NCBI GenBank assembly: GCA_013372975.1
Contig: JABXIS010000093.1
Span: forward strand, 1-33,792
DNA from: Alphaproteobacteria bacterium
GTDB lineage: Bacteria; Pseudomonadota; Alphaproteobacteria; Sphingomonadales; Kordiimonadaceae
Direction of reading: 5' to 3'
DNA: 33,792 nt
Part shown: piece after piece, positions 18,431-32,862 of the stretch
How positions within the stretch are numbered: position 1 is the first letter of the stretch
How the letters are laid out: each line of letters starts with the position of its first letter
Notes under the pieces: model-generated
What the model was told of the DNA's origin: nothing
Seen by the model: only the letters and a program-made list of their open reading frames with translations
Databases searched by the model: none
Made by a program: the position numbers and the translations under genes

Positions 18431-19798
18431 GTGGCACAAACATTCGCAAAATCAATATTTCTGTCTGGATTGGCGGGCTTGATGCTCTGTCTTGGCCCGG
18501 CCCCATCTGCCTATTCGGCTACTGTGGGACGCTGGGTAGCGCCGCCACCGAAGCCACCTACTGCGCGGCAGCATCAGCCTCAGAAAGCAAAGGGGCACCC
18601 CCATCACAATCGGCAGCGAAAAGCCAAACGCCAACAACAGCGTGAACGCAAGCAGGATGCGCGCCATCTCATGATAGCGCTACGCGCGGCGCCTCCAGGC
18701 AGCGCCGAGCGCGCGCGCATCAGGGCAGAACTCCGCAGCCGCTATGGGTTGGAATTTGCCAAGATCAAACGAAAGGAACGGCTGGTCCGGCGGGGCGAGA
18801 TTGTAGCAATTGATATGTCACCCGCTGCCGCCCGGATGGCCAGGCAAATGGGATTTCGGTGGCTACGGCGGAAATCATTGCCCGTAATGGGGCTCCGCAT
18901 CGATATGTGGCGTCCACCCGCCAAAATGTCCCTTGAGGTGGCGCTTGCGAAACTGCAAGCCGCTGACAGGGACGGCAGATACGAATTGAATTCAGCGTTC
19001 GAGCCTTCCGGCAACGGCACAATGCCCGAAGGGGCATTGCCCAAGTTTGCGCATGGTCACTTCAAGATTGGCATGATTGACACGGGAGTTTTGGCAAGCC
19101 ACCCGGCCCTTGAAGAAGCATCCGTGGCGCAAAAGAACTTCGGTCGTGGTGAAGCAATCACTGAACGCGATCATGGAACCGCCATAGCGTCGCTATTAGC
19201 ACAGTATGGCACCGCTGACATCAAGGTGGCTGACGTGTTCTCGGGCGATGCCGCCTATTCCGACGCTGAAGCCATCGTGCTTGCCATGGAATGGCTTGCA
19301 GGCGAGGGGGTAGCTGTAATGAACCTGAGCCTCGCGGGCCCGGACAGCCTGCTCCTGGAACTTGCCACAGAAAAACTCACCTCCAAGGGCTACGTCATCG
19401 TGGCGGCCGTCGGGAACGATGGCCCTGACGGGGTCGCACGCTATCCTGCTGCTTATGACGGCGTGATCGGAGTGACCGCCGTTGATAACAGCAAAACCAT
19501 TCTGGAACACGCCAATCAGGGCAGCTTTGTTGATTATGCTGCAGTTGGTGTAAACATTGAGGCCGCCAGCATGGATGGAGCCAAACCCTATTCAGGCACG
19601 TCCTTCGCTGTCCCTATAATTGCCGCCCAACTTGCCCTTGAAGCCAAATCACCAGACCCAGCGTCTCTGATGGCGATACTCGATCTTCTTGAAAAACGAG
19701 TGGAAGACCTGGGTATCCCGGGCCGAGATCCCGTTTATGGCAAAGGGTTGGTACCAAGGACACCGCCAGAGGTGAAAAATTCGATATCGGGGGAATAG
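18431..19798 (+). CDS. Exported S8 (subtilisin-like) serine peptidase
   Basis: A 455-residue peptidase. A signal peptide (about 1-30, ending PSAYSA) precedes a Pro/Gln/His/Lys/Arg-rich basic stretch (about 36-78) and a propeptide-like region to about 205. The subtilase domain follows, with D217 (IGMIDTGV), H248 (RDHGTAIASL), oxyanion N329 (AAVGNDGPDG) and S391 (YSGTSFAVPI), so the triad is intact. The His motif is HGTAIAS where most subtilases have HGTHVAG. It starts with GTG 18431, no strong ribosome binding site. Divergent from the ECF sigma operon and read from a matching ECF-type promoter, so it is a likely regulon member. Secretion and targets are unknown. Confidence 0.92.
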   Translation: MAQTFAKSIFLSGLAGLMLCLGPAPSAYSATVGRWVAPPPKPPTARQHQPQKAKGHPHHNRQRKAKRQQQRERKQDARHLMIALRAAPPGSAERARIRAELRSRYGLEFAKIKRKERLVRRGEIVAIDMSPAAARMARQMGFRWLRRKSLPVMGLRIDMWRPPAKMSLEVALAKLQAADRDGRYELNSAFEPSGNGTMPEGALPKFAHGHFKIGMIDTGVLASHPALEEASVAQKNFGRGEAITERDHGTAIASLLAQYGTADIKVADVFSGDAAYSDAEAIVLAMEWLAGEGVAVMNLSLAGPDSLLLELATEKLTSKGYVIVAAVGNDGPDGVARYPAAYDGVIGVTAVDNSKTILEHANQGSFVDYAAVGVNIEAASMDGAKPYSGTSFAVPIIAAQLALEAKSPDPASLMAILDLLEKRVEDLGIPGRDPVYGKGLVPRTPPEVKNSISGE

Positions 19799-20126: not shown

Positions 20127-20981
20127 TCAGGCGTCCCAGGTATCCAGCCTGTCCACCGCAGCAAAGCCGCCAGGCCGTACCACGATATCCTCTTCCGTGA
20201 GGATCGCATCCAAGACCGTGATAGTGCCAAGCGCATCGCCGTCATGGGCACCGCCACCATTGGCACTTTGGTCGCTTGAAAGGGTCAACAGGGTATAATC
20301 GTCGATGCCGTCATCATCGCTATCGCCATAGCTGATATCCACAGAAACCGTGTGGCCGGAAATCACAATGGTATCGCCCTCTTCGGCGGAATAATCAGTG
20401 ATAACATCATTGCCGATGCCTTCCACCCAGTGGTCGTGCACATTGTCATTTTCCTTGGCAACCGCACGCCAATCAACACGCCCGGTTTCTGGATCAGTAT
20501 GAGCAGCAATTACCTCTTCAGTGGCATTGATAAGCGGGCGGAAGATAAACTCATCGGCACCGTCACCGCCTGTGAGTGTATCGTCTGCCGCCAGGTCCTG
20601 ATCTGCGGTTACCCTGCCATCCGGGTCTTGCGCCGGGTCTGGCTCTCCCGCATCCGCAAGCGAGATCAACTTGTCATTACCATCCCCGCCTTCCAGTTTG
20701 TCCGCGCCGAGCGAAGCACGCAGGCCATCGTCACCGGCACCGCCAGAAAGGGTATCGTCACCACTGCCGTCGCCAAGCCGGTCGTTGCCTGCATCGCCCG
20801 AAAGTTGATCGTCGCCAAAGCCGCCCGCGAGCAGATCGTCACCCTCGCCACCGGCAACTGTGTCGTCTCCCTCACCTGCGAGCAACGCATCGGCCTCGTC
20901 AGTCCCCACAAGCTGGTCGTTTTCCTCAGTGCCTTCAATGATGTTTTTATCTTCAAGGGAAGGTTTTGCGTGTTTGGGCAT
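20127..20981 (-). CDS. RTX-type calcium-binding repeat protein
   Basis: A 284-residue acidic protein with no N-terminal signal peptide. From about residue 17 to 145 it holds eight or so RTX nonapeptides of the GGxGxDxLx type (for example AGGEGDDLL, SGGAGDDGL, EGGDGNDKL, TGGDGADEF), which form a calcium-bound beta-roll. The rest includes a second acidic Ca-type loop (GDSDDDGIDDY) and a C-terminal stretch GTITVLDAILTEEDIVV typical of type I-secreted RTX proteins. Secretion through a type I system is therefore likely; no ABC/adaptor genes are in the window. ATG 20981 has an AAAGGAGA site. An ECF-type promoter precedes it, tying it to the sigma and protease genes. No enzymatic domain is seen. Confidence 0.9.
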   Translation of the reverse strand: MPKHAKPSLEDKNIIEGTEENDQLVGTDEADALLAGEGDDTVAGGEGDDLLAGGFGDDQLSGDAGNDRLGDGSGDDTLSGGAGDDGLRASLGADKLEGGDGNDKLISLADAGEPDPAQDPDGRVTADQDLAADDTLTGGDGADEFIFRPLINATEEVIAAHTDPETGRVDWRAVAKENDNVHDHWVEGIGNDVITDYSAEEGDTIVISGHTVSVDISYGDSDDDGIDDYTLLTLSSDQSANGGGAHDGDALGTITVLDAILTEEDIVVRPGGFAAVDRLDTWDA

Positions 20982-21030
20982 AGGTATCTCCTTTACGTTC
21001 ATTGCGCCCCACCTCGGGGGCATTGAAGGA

Positions 21031-28910: not shown

Positions 28911-30359
28911 ATGACGTCCGAGACTATTTCCATCCGCCGACAACGCAAAACACGCATCGTCGCAACCCTGGGGCCTGCCAGCAGCAGCCATGAACGCATT
29001 CGCGAGCTTTTCCTCGCCGGTGTGGATGTGTTCCGGCTGAACATGAGCCATGGCGAACACAAGGACAAGGAAGCGCTGGTGCATACCATTCGTGCGGTAG
29101 AGCGCGAACTTAACCACCCGATTGCCATCTTGGCTGACCTTCAGGGCCCGAAACTTCGCATCGGCCTGTTCGAAGATGGCAAGATCACATTGAAGGAAGG
29201 GCAGCCTTTCAAGCTCGACCTTCTGGATCAGCCGGGCAATAACGAGCGTGTGTATCTGCCGCACAAGGAAATCTTCGACGCCCTTGAAGTTGGTACCAAC
29301 ATCCTGCTGGATGACGGCAAGATCCGCCTTGAAGTGGAGGCCGTGGAAGAAAACCGCGCCCGCACCCGCGTGATCGTGGGTGGCGTGCTGTCCGACCGGA
29401 AAGGCGTGAATGTGCCAAACGCCGTTCTGCCACTGGCGGCCCTTACAGAGAAAGACCGCAAAGACCTTACCTTCGCGCTGCAGTGCGGCGTGGACTGGGT
29501 GGCGCTTTCCTTCGTGCAGCGCGCAGCAGATGTGGCCGAAGCCAAAAAGCTTGTGGGCAAAAAAGCCTCGGTAATGGCAAAGATCGAAAAGCCCGCCGCT
29601 GTAACGGCGCTCAATGAAATTATCGAGCTGGCTGACGGTGTGATGGTTGCCCGCGGCGATCTGGGCGTTGAGGAACCGGTTGAAAATGTACCGGGCATCC
29701 AGAAAATGATCGTGCGTCAGGCGCGTCAGGCAGGCAAGCCTGTTGTTGTGGCCACGCAGATGCTGGAAAGCATGATCAAGTCGCCCGTGCCTACCCGCGC
29801 CGAAGTGTCAGACGTTGCCACCGCCGTACAGGATGGCGCGGATGCCGTGATGCTGTCGGCCGAATCCGCCGTTGGCGATTATCCGATCGAAGCCGTGCAG
29901 GTGATGAACCGGGTGGCAGAACGCGTGGAAAACGAGCCCAACTATCTGATGACGGGCGCTGAAGAGCGCACCAACCCGAACGCCACCACGGAAGACGCTA
30001 TCACGGCGGCTGCCAAACAGGTGGCACGCACGGTGGGCGCCAAAGCGATTGTTACCTTCACCACATCGGGCGCCACGGCCCTGAGGGCCGCGCGGGAACG
30101 CCCCGACGCCCCGATCCTGACCCTCACACCCAAGCTCGCCGTTGCACGCCGCCTCTCGATCGTGTGGGGCCTGCATACGGTCAAAACCAAGGATGTGGGC
30201 GCGTTCGAGGAAATGGTTGGCAAATCCAAGCGCATGGCCCTGAGGGCTGGCCTCGTGAAAGCAGGGGACCGTATCGTGGTGACCGCAGGCGTACCCTTTG
30301 GCACGCCGGGCGCCACCAACGTGCTGCATATCGCCTGGATTAGCGGAAGCGAACTTTAG
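28911..30359 (+). CDS. pyk: Pyruvate kinase
   Basis: A 482-residue cytoplasmic glycolytic enzyme making pyruvate and ATP from phosphoenolpyruvate and ADP. Active-site features: KTRIVATLGPAS, R42/N44/S46 in VDVFRLNMSHG, the LADLQGPKLRIG segment, MAKIEKPAAV with the catalytic Lys-Glu, and GVMVARGDLGVE with the metal/phosphate site. A C-terminal allosteric-type domain follows (AITAAAKQVARTVGAKAIVTFTTSGATA). ATG 28911 has GGGAGG upstream. It ends in a 4-bp overlap with the convergent HAD gene. Confidence 0.97.
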   Translation: MTSETISIRRQRKTRIVATLGPASSSHERIRELFLAGVDVFRLNMSHGEHKDKEALVHTIRAVERELNHPIAILADLQGPKLRIGLFEDGKITLKEGQPFKLDLLDQPGNNERVYLPHKEIFDALEVGTNILLDDGKIRLEVEAVEENRARTRVIVGGVLSDRKGVNVPNAVLPLAALTEKDRKDLTFALQCGVDWVALSFVQRAADVAEAKKLVGKKASVMAKIEKPAAVTALNEIIELADGVMVARGDLGVEEPVENVPGIQKMIVRQARQAGKPVVVATQMLESMIKSPVPTRAEVSDVATAVQDGADAVMLSAESAVGDYPIEAVQVMNRVAERVENEPNYLMTGAEERTNPNATTEDAITAAAKQVARTVGAKAIVTFTTSGATALRAARERPDAPILTLTPKLAVARRLSIVWGLHTVKTKDVGAFEEMVGKSKRMALRAGLVKAGDRIVVTAGVPFGTPGATNVLHIAWISGSEL

Positions 30360-30967
30360 GCAAGCAAGCCATGCTGGCGCAGATCGGCCTCAAGCCTGTC
30401 TGCGCCGGTGAAATGATGCCCCACCATGCCCGCCTGTTCTGACGCGCGCACATTATCAATGCGGTCATCGATATACAGCGTGGCTTCCGGATCAAGCCCG
30501 AACCGCGAGATTGTCAGATCAAAGATGCGTGGGTCCGGCTTCACAAGCTTCACCTCACCTGACACCACCACCCCTTCTAACAGATCTGTGTAGGCGTTCT
30601 TGCGGCAGAAGGCGGGCCATTTTTCGTGCGAGAAGTTGGTGAGCGCATAACAGGGCACACCCTGTTCTGTTAGCTGCTCCAACAACCGCACTGTGCCATG
30701 GATGGTATCCCCGATGGTTTCATCCCAGCGCTCGTCGAAAGCGCGGATCAGATCTTCATGTTCGGGGAACTGTTCCGAAAGAATCCGCACCCCTTCCGCA
30801 AACGGTCGCCCACGATCATGTTCTGTGTGCCAGTCAAGCGTCACCACATCCTGGAGGAAGGCATCCAGCGCATCCGGACAGTCGATCAGTTTCTGGTACA
30901 ACAGGCGCGGGTCCCAGCGCACAAAAACATTGCCAATATCAAAGAGAACGGTGTGAAGCCTGGCCAC
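30356..30967 (-). CDS. HAD-superfamily hydrolase (YihX-like, class IA)
   Basis: A 203-residue phosphatase. HAD motifs: I, LFDIGNVFVRWD (nucleophile and general acid Asp replaced as in IGNV-type members); II, YALTNFS; III, KLVKPDPRIF; IV, LYIDDRIDNV. The IGNV form and WHTEHDRGRPFAEG cap match YihX/alpha-D-glucose-1-phosphatase-like proteins; the substrate here is unproven. GTG 30967 is chosen since GGGGG lies about 9 nt upstream, and a TTG at 31000 would extend into the terminator hairpin. The rpmJ-side repeat lies directly upstream and contributes bases of the ribosome binding site. Confidence 0.88.
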   Translation of the reverse strand: MARLHTVLFDIGNVFVRWDPRLLYQKLIDCPDALDAFLQDVVTLDWHTEHDRGRPFAEGVRILSEQFPEHEDLIRAFDERWDETIGDTIHGTVRLLEQLTEQGVPCYALTNFSHEKWPAFCRKNAYTDLLEGVVVSGEVKLVKPDPRIFDLTISRFGLDPEATLYIDDRIDNVRASEQAGMVGHHFTGADRLEADLRQHGLLA

Positions 30968-30977
30968 GATCGAAAAC

Positions 30978-31077
30978 CCCCAAATGAGAAAGCCGCGCAA
31001 CTCTATCAGAGCGCACGGCTAAATCAATCAGGCTGGATAACCAGACCCAGCTGAAGCGAGAGGCTTAGCCCTGGCGC
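30978..31077. repeat. Direct repeat, left copy (rpmJ 3' end and terminator)
   Basis: This 100-bp block matches 32651-32749 with four differences (one extra A at 31008 and three substitutions). On the minus strand it begins with the final codons of rpmJ (CGC CAG GGC TAA), continues through the rpmJ hairpin terminator (stem 30992-31019) and ends in the CCCC that forms the ribosome binding site of the HAD gene. It is a duplicated, non-functional remnant of the rpmJ tail. Confidence 0.92.
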
Positions 31078-31098
31078 ACACAACACACTCAGAGTCGG

Positions 31099-31132
31099 TT
31101 GACATATTTTCAAGTCGCCGCAACACTAATTC
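31099..31132 (+). promoter_or_regulatory. Possible promoter of the TPR module
   Basis: A perfect -35, TTGACA (31099-31104), lies just inside the left repeat. A -10 is unclear: TAATTC (31127-31132) is 22 bp away, and the closer AACACT at 17 bp is poor. It would serve the two module genes. Confidence 0.35.
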
Positions 31133-31158
31133 CGTGCATGGCAGATAGGGAAAGTTGT

Positions 31159-31368
31159 ATGGACGATATTCTGAATTGGATCAGCGCAAACCCCAAACAG
31201 GCAGGTGGAATAGGTGTAGCCCTTGCGGCAGGCATCGCTGCAGTGTGGAAATGGGCCACACGCGACAAGACAGGTATTTCACAGTCGACACAAGGCAGCC
31301 AATCCCCCGCCATCAACGCGGGCGGCGATGTTGATATCAGCTATGGTGACAAGCCTGATGCGCAGTAA
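31159..31368 (+). CDS. Small membrane-anchored protein of the TPR module
   Basis: A 69-residue protein starting at ATG 31159 with AGGGAAAG upstream. A short polar N-terminus (MDDILNWISANPKQAG) is followed by one membrane helix (about 17-33, GIGVALAAGIAAVWKW). The tail contains the motif GSQSPAINAGGDVDISYG, which also occurs in the next protein as GTQSPAIHSGGDTTINYG. The topology is probably N-out/C-in or a simple tail anchor, exact side unknown. Its stop overlaps the next gene by 11 bp. Similar small TM proteins with a GGD-x-x-I motif exist in accessory regions of many bacteria to my recollection, with no established role. Confidence 0.75.
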   Translation: MDDILNWISANPKQAGGIGVALAAGIAAVWKWATRDKTGISQSTQGSQSPAINAGGDVDISYGDKPDAQ

Positions 31369-32620
31369 GAAGCCTTCTGAACCGGCACAGCAAACCGAAG
31401 GCACCCAGTCCCCCGCCATTCACTCGGGCGGCGATACCACCATCAATTATGGCCTGACCCCGGCACTTCAAGACGCGTTAGCGAAAGAGATTGAATCGAA
31501 AAGCCTGGCGCTTGCGGAAAAAGAAGAGCTGGTTGCGAAACAGGCACAAACCATCCGGAAATTGCAAGCAAGCCTGAACAACCGCCCGGCTGACCAGTCC
31601 CTCGCCGTGGAGGCCAAAGCCAAGCTGGATGAAGGCGACCTGGATGAAGCCCGCGGCCTTCTGGAACAATCCTTCAAAAGCAACAAGCTGAAGGCTACAG
31701 AAAAGGCCGAACAAGCCGCCGCAGATGCCTTTGAGCTTGCAAAGCTTCATGAAGCACAACTCGAATATTACGAGGCGCAGGCATGGCATGAACGGGCTGT
31801 GAAACTGGCTCCCACGAATACCGTCTATCTGAACGAAGCGGGATTGAATGCGCAAGTAATAGGACAAAACAAGCTGGCTATCGCCCATCTTGAGAAAGCA
31901 CTTGAAAGGCTTATAAGCGCCAATGGCGACGAACACCCTCACGTCGCGTCTATTCGAAATAACTTAGGTGGCGTGTGGCAAGATCTAGGAGATCCACTCA
32001 AAGCTATTGGCTACGTTGAGAAAGCGCTAGAAAGTGATTTAAAGACCTATGGAGAAAATCATCCCAAAATCGCTATCCGTTGGAATAATCTTGGCGGCGC
32101 ATGGCAGGACTTAGGAGAGCCACAAAAGGCACTCGAATATTATGAAAGGGCACTGGAAAGCGACTTGAAAACCTATGGCACATCTCATCCAATTGTTGCG
32201 ATCCGCTGGAACAATCTAGGAAGCACTTGGTCTGCATTGGGAGAGCCTCTGAAGGCTATTGAGTATTTTGAAAAATCGCTGGAAAACGGTTTAAACACCT
32301 ATGGAGAAGGACACCCCAAAGTCGCCATCCGTAGAAACAACCTGGGAAGTGTCTGGAATGAACTGGGGGAACCTAAAAAAGCTATCGAATATTTTGAAAA
32401 GGCGTTAAAAAGCGACTTAAAGACCTATGGTGAAAACCATGCAGATGTCGCCATTGATCTGAATAACCTAGGCAGAACATGGCAAGACCTTGGAGAGCCC
32501 AAGAAAGCCATCGAGTATTACGAGAAAGCTCTTTCCACAGCTTTGACCTGTTGGGGAGAAAACCATCCGAATACACAAGTAATCCAGAACAATCTGGATG
32601 CATGTAAAGCGTCTCTTTAG
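31358..32620 (+). CDS. TPR repeat protein with N-terminal GGD motif
   Basis: A 420-residue soluble protein. Residues 15-32 carry the shared motif G-T-QSPAI-H-S-GGD-T-T-I-N-YG. A coiled coil follows (about 38-75), then helical TPR-like units (about 80-185), then five 42-residue repeats of kinesin-light-chain type starting at residues 190, 232, 274, 316 and 358 and a partial sixth at 400. The repeat consensus is YGENHPxVAIRxNNLG, then W-x-x-LGEPxKAIEYxEKAL. No enzyme or NTPase domain is present, so it is likely a scaffold or ligand sensor. ATG 31358 overlaps the small membrane protein gene. The shared motif suggests the two proteins contact one another. Recruitment to the membrane is inferred. 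Closely related repeats are a sign of recent tandem expansion. Confidence 0.85.
   Translation: MRSKKPSEPAQQTEGTQSPAIHSGGDTTINYGLTPALQDALAKEIESKSLALAEKEELVAKQAQTIRKLQASLNNRPADQSLAVEAKAKLDEGDLDEARGLLEQSFKSNKLKATEKAEQAAADAFELAKLHEAQLEYYEAQAWHERAVKLAPTNTVYLNEAGLNAQVIGQNKLAIAHLEKALERLISANGDEHPHVASIRNNLGGVWQDLGDPLKAIGYVEKALESDLKTYGENHPKIAIRWNNLGGAWQDLGEPQKALEYYERALESDLKTYGTSHPIVAIRWNNLGSTWSALGEPLKAIEYFEKSLENGLNTYGEGHPKVAIRRNNLGSVWNELGEPKKAIEYFEKALKSDLKTYGENHADVAIDLNNLGRTWQDLGEPKKAIEYYEKALSTALTCWGENHPNTQVIQNNLDACKASL
31925..32617 (+). repeat. Tandem 126-bp coding repeats (42-residue TPR units)
   Basis: Units begin at 31925, 32051, 32177, 32303, 32429 and a partial one at 32555. They are in frame, so copy number can change without a frameshift. 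This part is visibly more AT-rich than the flanking housekeeping genes. Confidence 0.8.
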
Positions 32621-32650
32621 CTCCAAACTACCAGCCTCTAGTCCTCCACA

Positions 32651-32749
32651 CCCCAAATGAGAAAGCCGCGCAACTCTATCGAGTGCACGGCTAAATCAAT
32701 TAGGCTGGATAACCAGACCCGGCTGAAGCGAGAGGCTTAGCCCTGGCGC
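32651..32749. repeat. Direct repeat, right copy (functional rpmJ 3' end)
   Basis: The 99-bp partner of 30978-31077, same orientation, 1.67 kb apart. This copy overlaps the real end of rpmJ (32737-32749) and its terminator. No inverted repeats are visible at the inner ends of the module, and no recombinase gene lies between the copies. Confidence 0.92.
32655..32691 (-). terminator. Terminator of rpmJ
   Basis: On the minus strand GCCGTGCACTC, loop GATA, GAGTTGCGCGGC form an 11-bp stem with one bulge, followed by TTTCTCATTT. On the plus strand the same stem may also end the TPR gene, though its tail is less T-rich. A near-identical hairpin is in the left repeat. Confidence 0.65.
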
Positions 32750-32862
32750 GCTTTAAAGCGACGCTGAGTCTTGTTGATCACATAAGTGCGGCCCTTGCGG
32801 CGAATCACACGACAATCGCGGTGACGGCTTTTCAAAGACTTCAAGCTATTACGAATTTTCAT
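32737..32862 (-). CDS. rpmJ: Ribosomal protein L36 (bL36)
   Basis: A 41-residue basic protein of the large ribosomal subunit, reading [18 protein letters not shown], then [23 protein letters not shown]. This is the longer L36 type used by alphaproteobacteria; it lacks the full zinc-binding Cys set. ATG 32862 is 5' of GAGACGAACG. Its last codons and terminator are duplicated 1.67 kb away, on the far side of the TPR module. The gene itself is intact. Confidence 0.95.

Follow-up and report, generated by a model that had tools for sequence, protein, structure and literature searches.

A module of two accessory genes lies in the spacer between rpmJ, the gene for ribosomal protein L36, and a resident gene for a HAD-family hydrolase, and it is flanked by direct repeats that each cover the spacer. 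We tentatively favor an origin by homologous recombination of a DNA molecule that carried a copy of the spacer, to which we assign a probability of about 0.45. The favored reading is based on the lineage of the two repeat copies, on the extent of their identity, and on a survey of rpmJ loci that returned no integrase-bearing counterpart.

A two-gene module lies between direct repeats of the rpmJ-HAD spacer

The window, by which we mean the whole stretch of DNA analyzed, is an entire contig (G000:C3, 33,792 bp) from a draft genome of 96 contigs. rpmJ sits near the contig end; some 1.8 kb beyond it comes the HAD gene, and then pyk on the opposite strand. The relevant features are as follows.

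30356 to 30967, minus strand: resident HAD-family hydrolase gene (Pfam PF00702, PF13419), adjoining copy A and found next to rpmJ in the family
30978 to 31077, minus strand: repeat copy A, 100 nt; spans the rpmJ tail, the hairpin of the spacer, and the G run ahead of the HAD gene
31078 to 32650, plus strand: module of unique DNA enclosed by the repeats, 1573 bp with 49.7% GC (window 55.1%), missing from empty sites
31159 to 31368, plus strand: gene for a small protein of 69 aa with a weakly hydrophobic segment and the motif GSQSPAINAGGDVDISYG; no family match
31358 to 32620, plus strand: gene for a TPR protein with TPR_12 repeats, which shares 11 nt (ATGCGCAGTAA) with the small gene
32651 to 32749, minus strand: repeat copy B, 99 nt; completes rpmJ and supplies its spacer hairpin
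32737 to 32862, minus strand: rpmJ, type B ribosomal protein L36, 41 aa (NCBIfam NF002021)

Alignment confirmed the arrangement described in the first-pass annotation, in which two repeats of about 100 bp from the rpmJ 3′ end, 96% identical and in the same direct orientation, surround the 1.57-kb module. Three substitutions and a 1-nt indel separate the copies. Each block extends from the last rpmJ codons through a hairpin to a run of G just before the HAD start. Copy B carries the last codons and the stop of rpmJ and completes that gene, and copy A abuts the HAD gene, ending 10 bp from the GTG at 30967 that we read as its start; both points had been claimed at the outset and both were borne out. 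A whole-genome search with the block returned copies A and B as its only matches (E ≤ 0.001), and the block is thus not repeated at unrelated loci of this genome.

The repeat pair is not a chance occurrence: in 61 stretches (the window and 60 rpmJ loci, 1.2 Mb in total), a filter for repeats of at least 50 bp with at least 85% identity and a spacing of 150 to 6000 bp passed, in addition to this pair, no more than a single 53-bp pair (L140) and three pairs within L158. A longer, ancient duplication of rpmJ was considered and rejected, since neither the 60 bp upstream of the copies nor the 60 bp downstream of them show significant similarity. Under strict scoring, 268 and 329 of 500 shuffles reached the score of these flanks, and under loose scoring 60 and 423 did so. 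The module also stands out in composition: when 1573-bp intervals were taken at steps of 200, five of the six with the lowest GC started at 31000 to 32000.

The empty arrangement in relatives is ancestral by parsimony

In the family survey of 29 genomes, which included that of the window, rpmJ was found in 27, the HAD gene in 27, and both on one contig in 25. The site is empty in 21 of these 25, with an rpmJ-HAD gap of about 72 to 111 bp when the extrapolated start of the HAD match is taken as its end. The comparison of relatives proposed with the first description of the module therefore yields empty sites, and recombination between copies A and B would restore a gene order, rpmJ-spacer-HAD, that is common in the family. 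Outside the family, a HAD match lay 25 to 227 bp from rpmJ in 15 of 16 loci of the order (16 fetched of 28 with a hit). Two more loci of the order differed from each other, with a distance of 13 bp in G030 and no HAD match in G029. Among 20 loci of the class, chosen by hand, a HAD gene was near rpmJ in 3. Judging by these gene orders, rpmJ-HAD is evidently an old neighborhood in the order. By parsimony, the empty arrangement would be ancestral and the state of the window derived, and the module is a lineage-specific insertion with a duplicated spacer and was probably acquired. Of the species compared, only that of the window carries it in this spacer.

The interval is mildly variable, being filled in three of the 25 genomes besides that of the window and interrupted at contig ends in two others. 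In G019 the gap is 232 bp and noncoding as far as it was read, in G005 it is 369 bp and holds a MITE-like insert, and in G023 it is 675 bp and contains a cupin-domain gene, so that cargo stands there beside a single spacer. In G004 and G008, both members of the genus (loci L037, L038, and L039), rpmJ and the HAD gene are on separate contigs and other genes lie beside rpmJ up to the contig ends, namely a gene with a subthreshold alpha/beta-hydrolase match in G004 and an opposite-strand IF-2B-family gene in G008. The HAD gene of G004, on its other contig, adjoins an aldolase/short-chain-dehydrogenase fusion gene and an IF-2B-family gene. The IF-2B family includes MtnA, and the IF-2B-family neighbors in G004 and G008 are presumably MtnA-like. 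Other cargo of the kind to be looked for in relatives is thus present in G023 and, up to the contig ends, in G004 and G008, but no spacer or tail repeat accompanied the filling in G005, G019, or G023.

The MITE-like insert of G005 (L035, about 376 to 641) is approximately 266 bp long; read by eye, it is bounded by terminal inverted repeats (AGCATTYTTAGYCCCAATAAA) and by what looks like a TA target duplication. Elsewhere in the window, a gene with RTX-type calcium-binding nonapeptide repeats (20130 to 21023) lies near a subtilase-family gene (18431 to 19795), and no known RNA or tRNA was detected in the window at the thresholds of the tools used.

Both repeat copies derive from one lineage

The nearest spacer found was that of G006, which is 89% identical to each of copies A and B, while the copies are 96% identical to each other; the other genomes match over parts only. 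Compared with G006, A and B have seven substitutions and a 2-nt gap in common, a count made without outgroup polarization, and with G006 as the reference the four differences between A and B split two per copy. Copies A and B are of one lineage, because they are closer to each other than to any spacer compared and because they have these changes in common. The duplication would then have occurred after the split from G006, or the donor was nearer than G006 is. A very rough comparison of 3 substitutions with 8 to 9 suggests that the duplication is about a third as old as the G006 distance. Three substitutions in about 99 bp are too few to tell an in situ duplication from a conspecific donor.

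The spacer encodes a conserved hairpin

A 12-pair hairpin was predicted from an alignment (A1) of 22 spacers, comprising those of 20 other family genomes and copies A and B, and in 5 of the 12 pairs at least one row has a compensatory change on both sides. Most of the aligned family genomes conserve the hairpin. Of the 26 other family genomes in which rpmJ was found, six are not in the alignment: the spacers of G012 and G021 are like rows already included, that of G026 forms a comparable G+C-rich hairpin, and those of G019, G022, and G025 differ in sequence, that of G025 being by eye an ordinary hairpin with a T run. The compensatory pairs and the T-run hairpin of G025 support the likely role of the hairpin as a terminator. 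The repeated rpmJ terminator of the first-pass annotation therefore holds as a hairpin present in both copies, for which terminator is the likely reading, but a consensus terminator scan called none in copy A or copy B and the T tract is weak. The spacer hairpin had no Rfam match at gathering scores. It may be either a terminator or a regulatory leader of the HAD gene.

The cargo genes probably arose by the splitting of one ancestral gene

The module contains the small gene and the TPR gene only; integrase, relaxase, and conjugation genes are absent from it. Because these two genes are oriented opposite to rpmJ and HAD and are located between two hairpins, the cargo is probably a self-contained transcription unit. 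No complete promoter was found ahead of them by consensus scan. The hydrophobic stretch of the small protein has a 19-residue mean of 1.39. The TPR gene starts 11 nt before the end of the small gene, repeats the motif of the latter (TQSPAIHSGGDTTINYG), and continues into TPR_12 repeats. At the nucleotide level, a 67-bp repeat with a spacing of 106 bp (31280 to 31452) doubles a GSQSPAI motif across the two genes, and 106 is not a multiple of three. Six homologous loci were read, and several of them encode a hydrophobic N-terminal stretch and TPRs in one frame, most clearly L041 and L042, while in L044 the motif is fused to TPRs. Because some homologues are fused, the pair probably represents a split of one ancestral protein through a frame-shifting duplication of the motif. 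The cargo products are probably a TPR protein-interaction scaffold and a membrane-associated partner. No defense family or named family beyond TPR was assigned to the cargo proteins; a defense system was considered and rejected, the defense search having returned no more than a generic TPR model plus a single hit at an E value of 0.058.

Relatives of the TPR protein are patchily distributed. Among 19 genomes of the genus (E ≤ 1e−10), the genome of the window and one 30% partial match were the only hits, and the 18 other genomes have no close counterpart. When 296 genomes of the order were searched with the whole protein (E ≤ 1e−15, with at most six first-look candidates scored per genome), 8 others matched, and 4 others did so with the first 170 residues as the query. 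The best match in the order, from G092 of another family, was 56% identical over residues 252 to 392 and 46% over residues 83 to 416. A wider search of a genome collection by peptide patterns gave 114 confirmed loci, of which 80 were listed. Among the matches listed, the best near-full-length relatives were TPR_12 proteins of SAR324, Scalindua, and Nitrospinota, with 43 to 49% identity over most of the protein, and four records were alphaproteobacterial by title, the best with 45% identity over part of the TPR protein. Several of these TPR_12 relatives have a hydrophobic N-terminal segment ahead of the TPRs, but the fused examples examined are single proteins, whereas the window has two overlapping genes. 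This patchy spread suggests that the cargo was acquired rather than kept vertically with losses elsewhere. Given the 56% partial match in G092, the cargo is best termed accessory and not foreign.

A pattern scan found no viral relative of the TPR protein, and there was no phage DNA match; 184 plasmid records had TPR matches, all with less than 60% identity. A viral or phage origin was rejected. A 15-base piece of the hairpin occurs in six viral contigs, in none of which it continues as a hairpin in the sequence read around the match, and none of the viral stretches examined on these contigs encodes rpmJ, HAD, or pyk.

A single crossover would account for the repeat-flanked module

In the favored reading, a DNA molecule of the same or a very near lineage, in which the cargo had been joined to a copy of the rpmJ-HAD spacer, would have recombined with the resident spacer. 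The donor could have been a recircularized fragment or one that was homologous at one end and joined illegitimately at the other. A single crossover within the resident spacer would duplicate the spacer around the cargo, and with a whole spacer at both ends rpmJ and HAD would each keep their normal flank. The resident sequence is in fact duplicated around the insert, in copies of the same or a near lineage, as a single crossover would leave it. We prefer this route because the copies are of one lineage, because their identity extends over the whole spacer, the stretch before HAD included, and because no integrase-bearing counterpart was found. The identity runs up to the run of G before HAD, past what restoring a gene 3′ end requires.

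Several points count against recombination. The initial joining of cargo and spacer would need one illegitimate event, and the same anatomy would also be expected from an integrase. A length of 100 bp is short for efficient RecA recombination, and the flanks beyond the block have no significant homology. Neither a donor nor a second strain with the cargo was found, and this cargo was seen next to a single spacer in none of the 19 genus genomes, which represent one genome per species.

There is a laboratory precedent for such an event. In Escherichia coli, 14 sequenced clones carried duplications of 109 to 950 bp after recircularized DNA had integrated by single crossing-over (PMC3240628). As in the window, foreign DNA in that homology-facilitated recombination assay lay between direct duplications of resident sequence, the smallest of 109 bp. 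The assay used a laboratory plasmid in lacZ, whereas the window holds a natural, older insertion whose copies have diverged by 4%.

Alternative origins of the repeats

The main rival, which we consider unlikely, is a decayed or trans-mobilized integrative element, similar to a cis-mobilizable element (CIME), inserted by an integrase at the rpmJ 3′ end. Copy B would then be the replacement tail carried in by the element and copy A the resident tail that it displaced, the integrase having later been lost or having always acted in trans. The anatomy agrees with this: the gene 3′ end is completed by the inner copy, cargo lies between att-like direct repeats of which one restores the target gene, no integrase, relaxase, or conjugation gene is inside, and relatives have empty sites. 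The 3′ ends of ribosomal protein genes (rpsI, rpmG, rplL) are known tyrosine-integrase targets, and the composite islands at rpmG, rpsI, fda, and rplL of Streptococcus salivarius contain cargo-carrying CIMEs of 1.2 to 13 kb (PMC7563491). The module resembles those elements in being cargo only, in its size class, in lying between direct repeats where a ribosomal protein gene ends, and in its lack of an integrase. However, CIMEs were detectable in that study only when an ICE or IME stood in tandem with them at the same gene (PMC7563491), and the module differs in that no integrase-bearing element was found at rpmJ and its repeats cover the whole intergenic spacer.

The survey of other rpmJ loci also speaks against an integrase. 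Up to 20 kb downstream of rpmJ was searched in 60 genomes, one per species (24 of the family, 16 others of the order, and 20 of the class, without G004 and G008; four stretches were clearly shorter at contig ends), and the rpmJ tail of each genome recurred in 0 of 60, the best matches being 9 to 19 bp long. Phage-integrase hits (PF00589) are present in 28 of 29 family genomes. None of the listed hits on rpmJ contigs falls within 90 kb downstream of rpmJ, several of these contigs ending sooner. Among 39 hits examined, 20 were within 120 kb of rpmJ: 19 lie 12 to 49 kb upstream, one per genome in 19 family genomes, and this gene is probably a housekeeping Xer, while the remaining hit is 97 kb downstream in G019. 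A search of the open-library literature found no paper on rpmJ as an integration site or tyrosine-recombinase target. In addition, copy B is nearest to copy A and not to another species. The site therefore does not resemble an integrase hotspot, and the initial proposal that rpmJ is an att-type insertion hotspot is poorly supported.

Duplication in situ during break repair or replication is less probable again. Here the spacer and its hairpin would have been doubled as a stray fragment was captured in one step, with a long target duplication made by template switching or by fill-in of staggered nicks. Hairpins of this kind can stall replication, and the block does hold a stable hairpin, with both copies of one lineage. 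The step from hairpin to break is itself inferred, and no other example was seen in the 60 loci. Ku was absent from the 29 family genomes (E ≤ 1e−8; of 14 in a control search, one had it, Bacillus subtilis), which makes Ku-dependent, classical end-joining capture unlikely.

It is very doubtful that the spacer hairpin serves as the attachment site of undescribed, integrase-less mini-cassettes, each trans-mobilized with its own spacer copy and leaving both neighbors intact. A transposon that duplicated its target, or an integron-type cassette, would explain direct repeats around the module but is highly improbable: the module, which holds only the TPR gene and the small gene, gave no transposase match and lacks inverted repeats at its ends, the known target duplications of transposons are far shorter than the block of about 100 bp, the GTTRRRY attC core was absent by eye from both strands of the block, and no integrase was among the 24 window proteins scanned, a set smaller than the full list of ORFs. 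An assembly artifact, conceivable in that the window makes up an entire contig of a draft in 96 contigs, is likewise highly improbable, since four positions distinguish the copies and the flanks on either side, on one contig, fit the order usual for rpmJ and HAD.

Implications

The repeats could allow low-frequency deletion of the module through RecA-type recombination or slippage. The locus combines CIME-like anatomy with a site at which no integrase-based element was found, and it calls for caution in annotating such elements by their flanking repeats alone. It offers a clean natural example of accessory genes in the spacer of a core gene, with neither neighbor damaged and the empty site kept in relatives.
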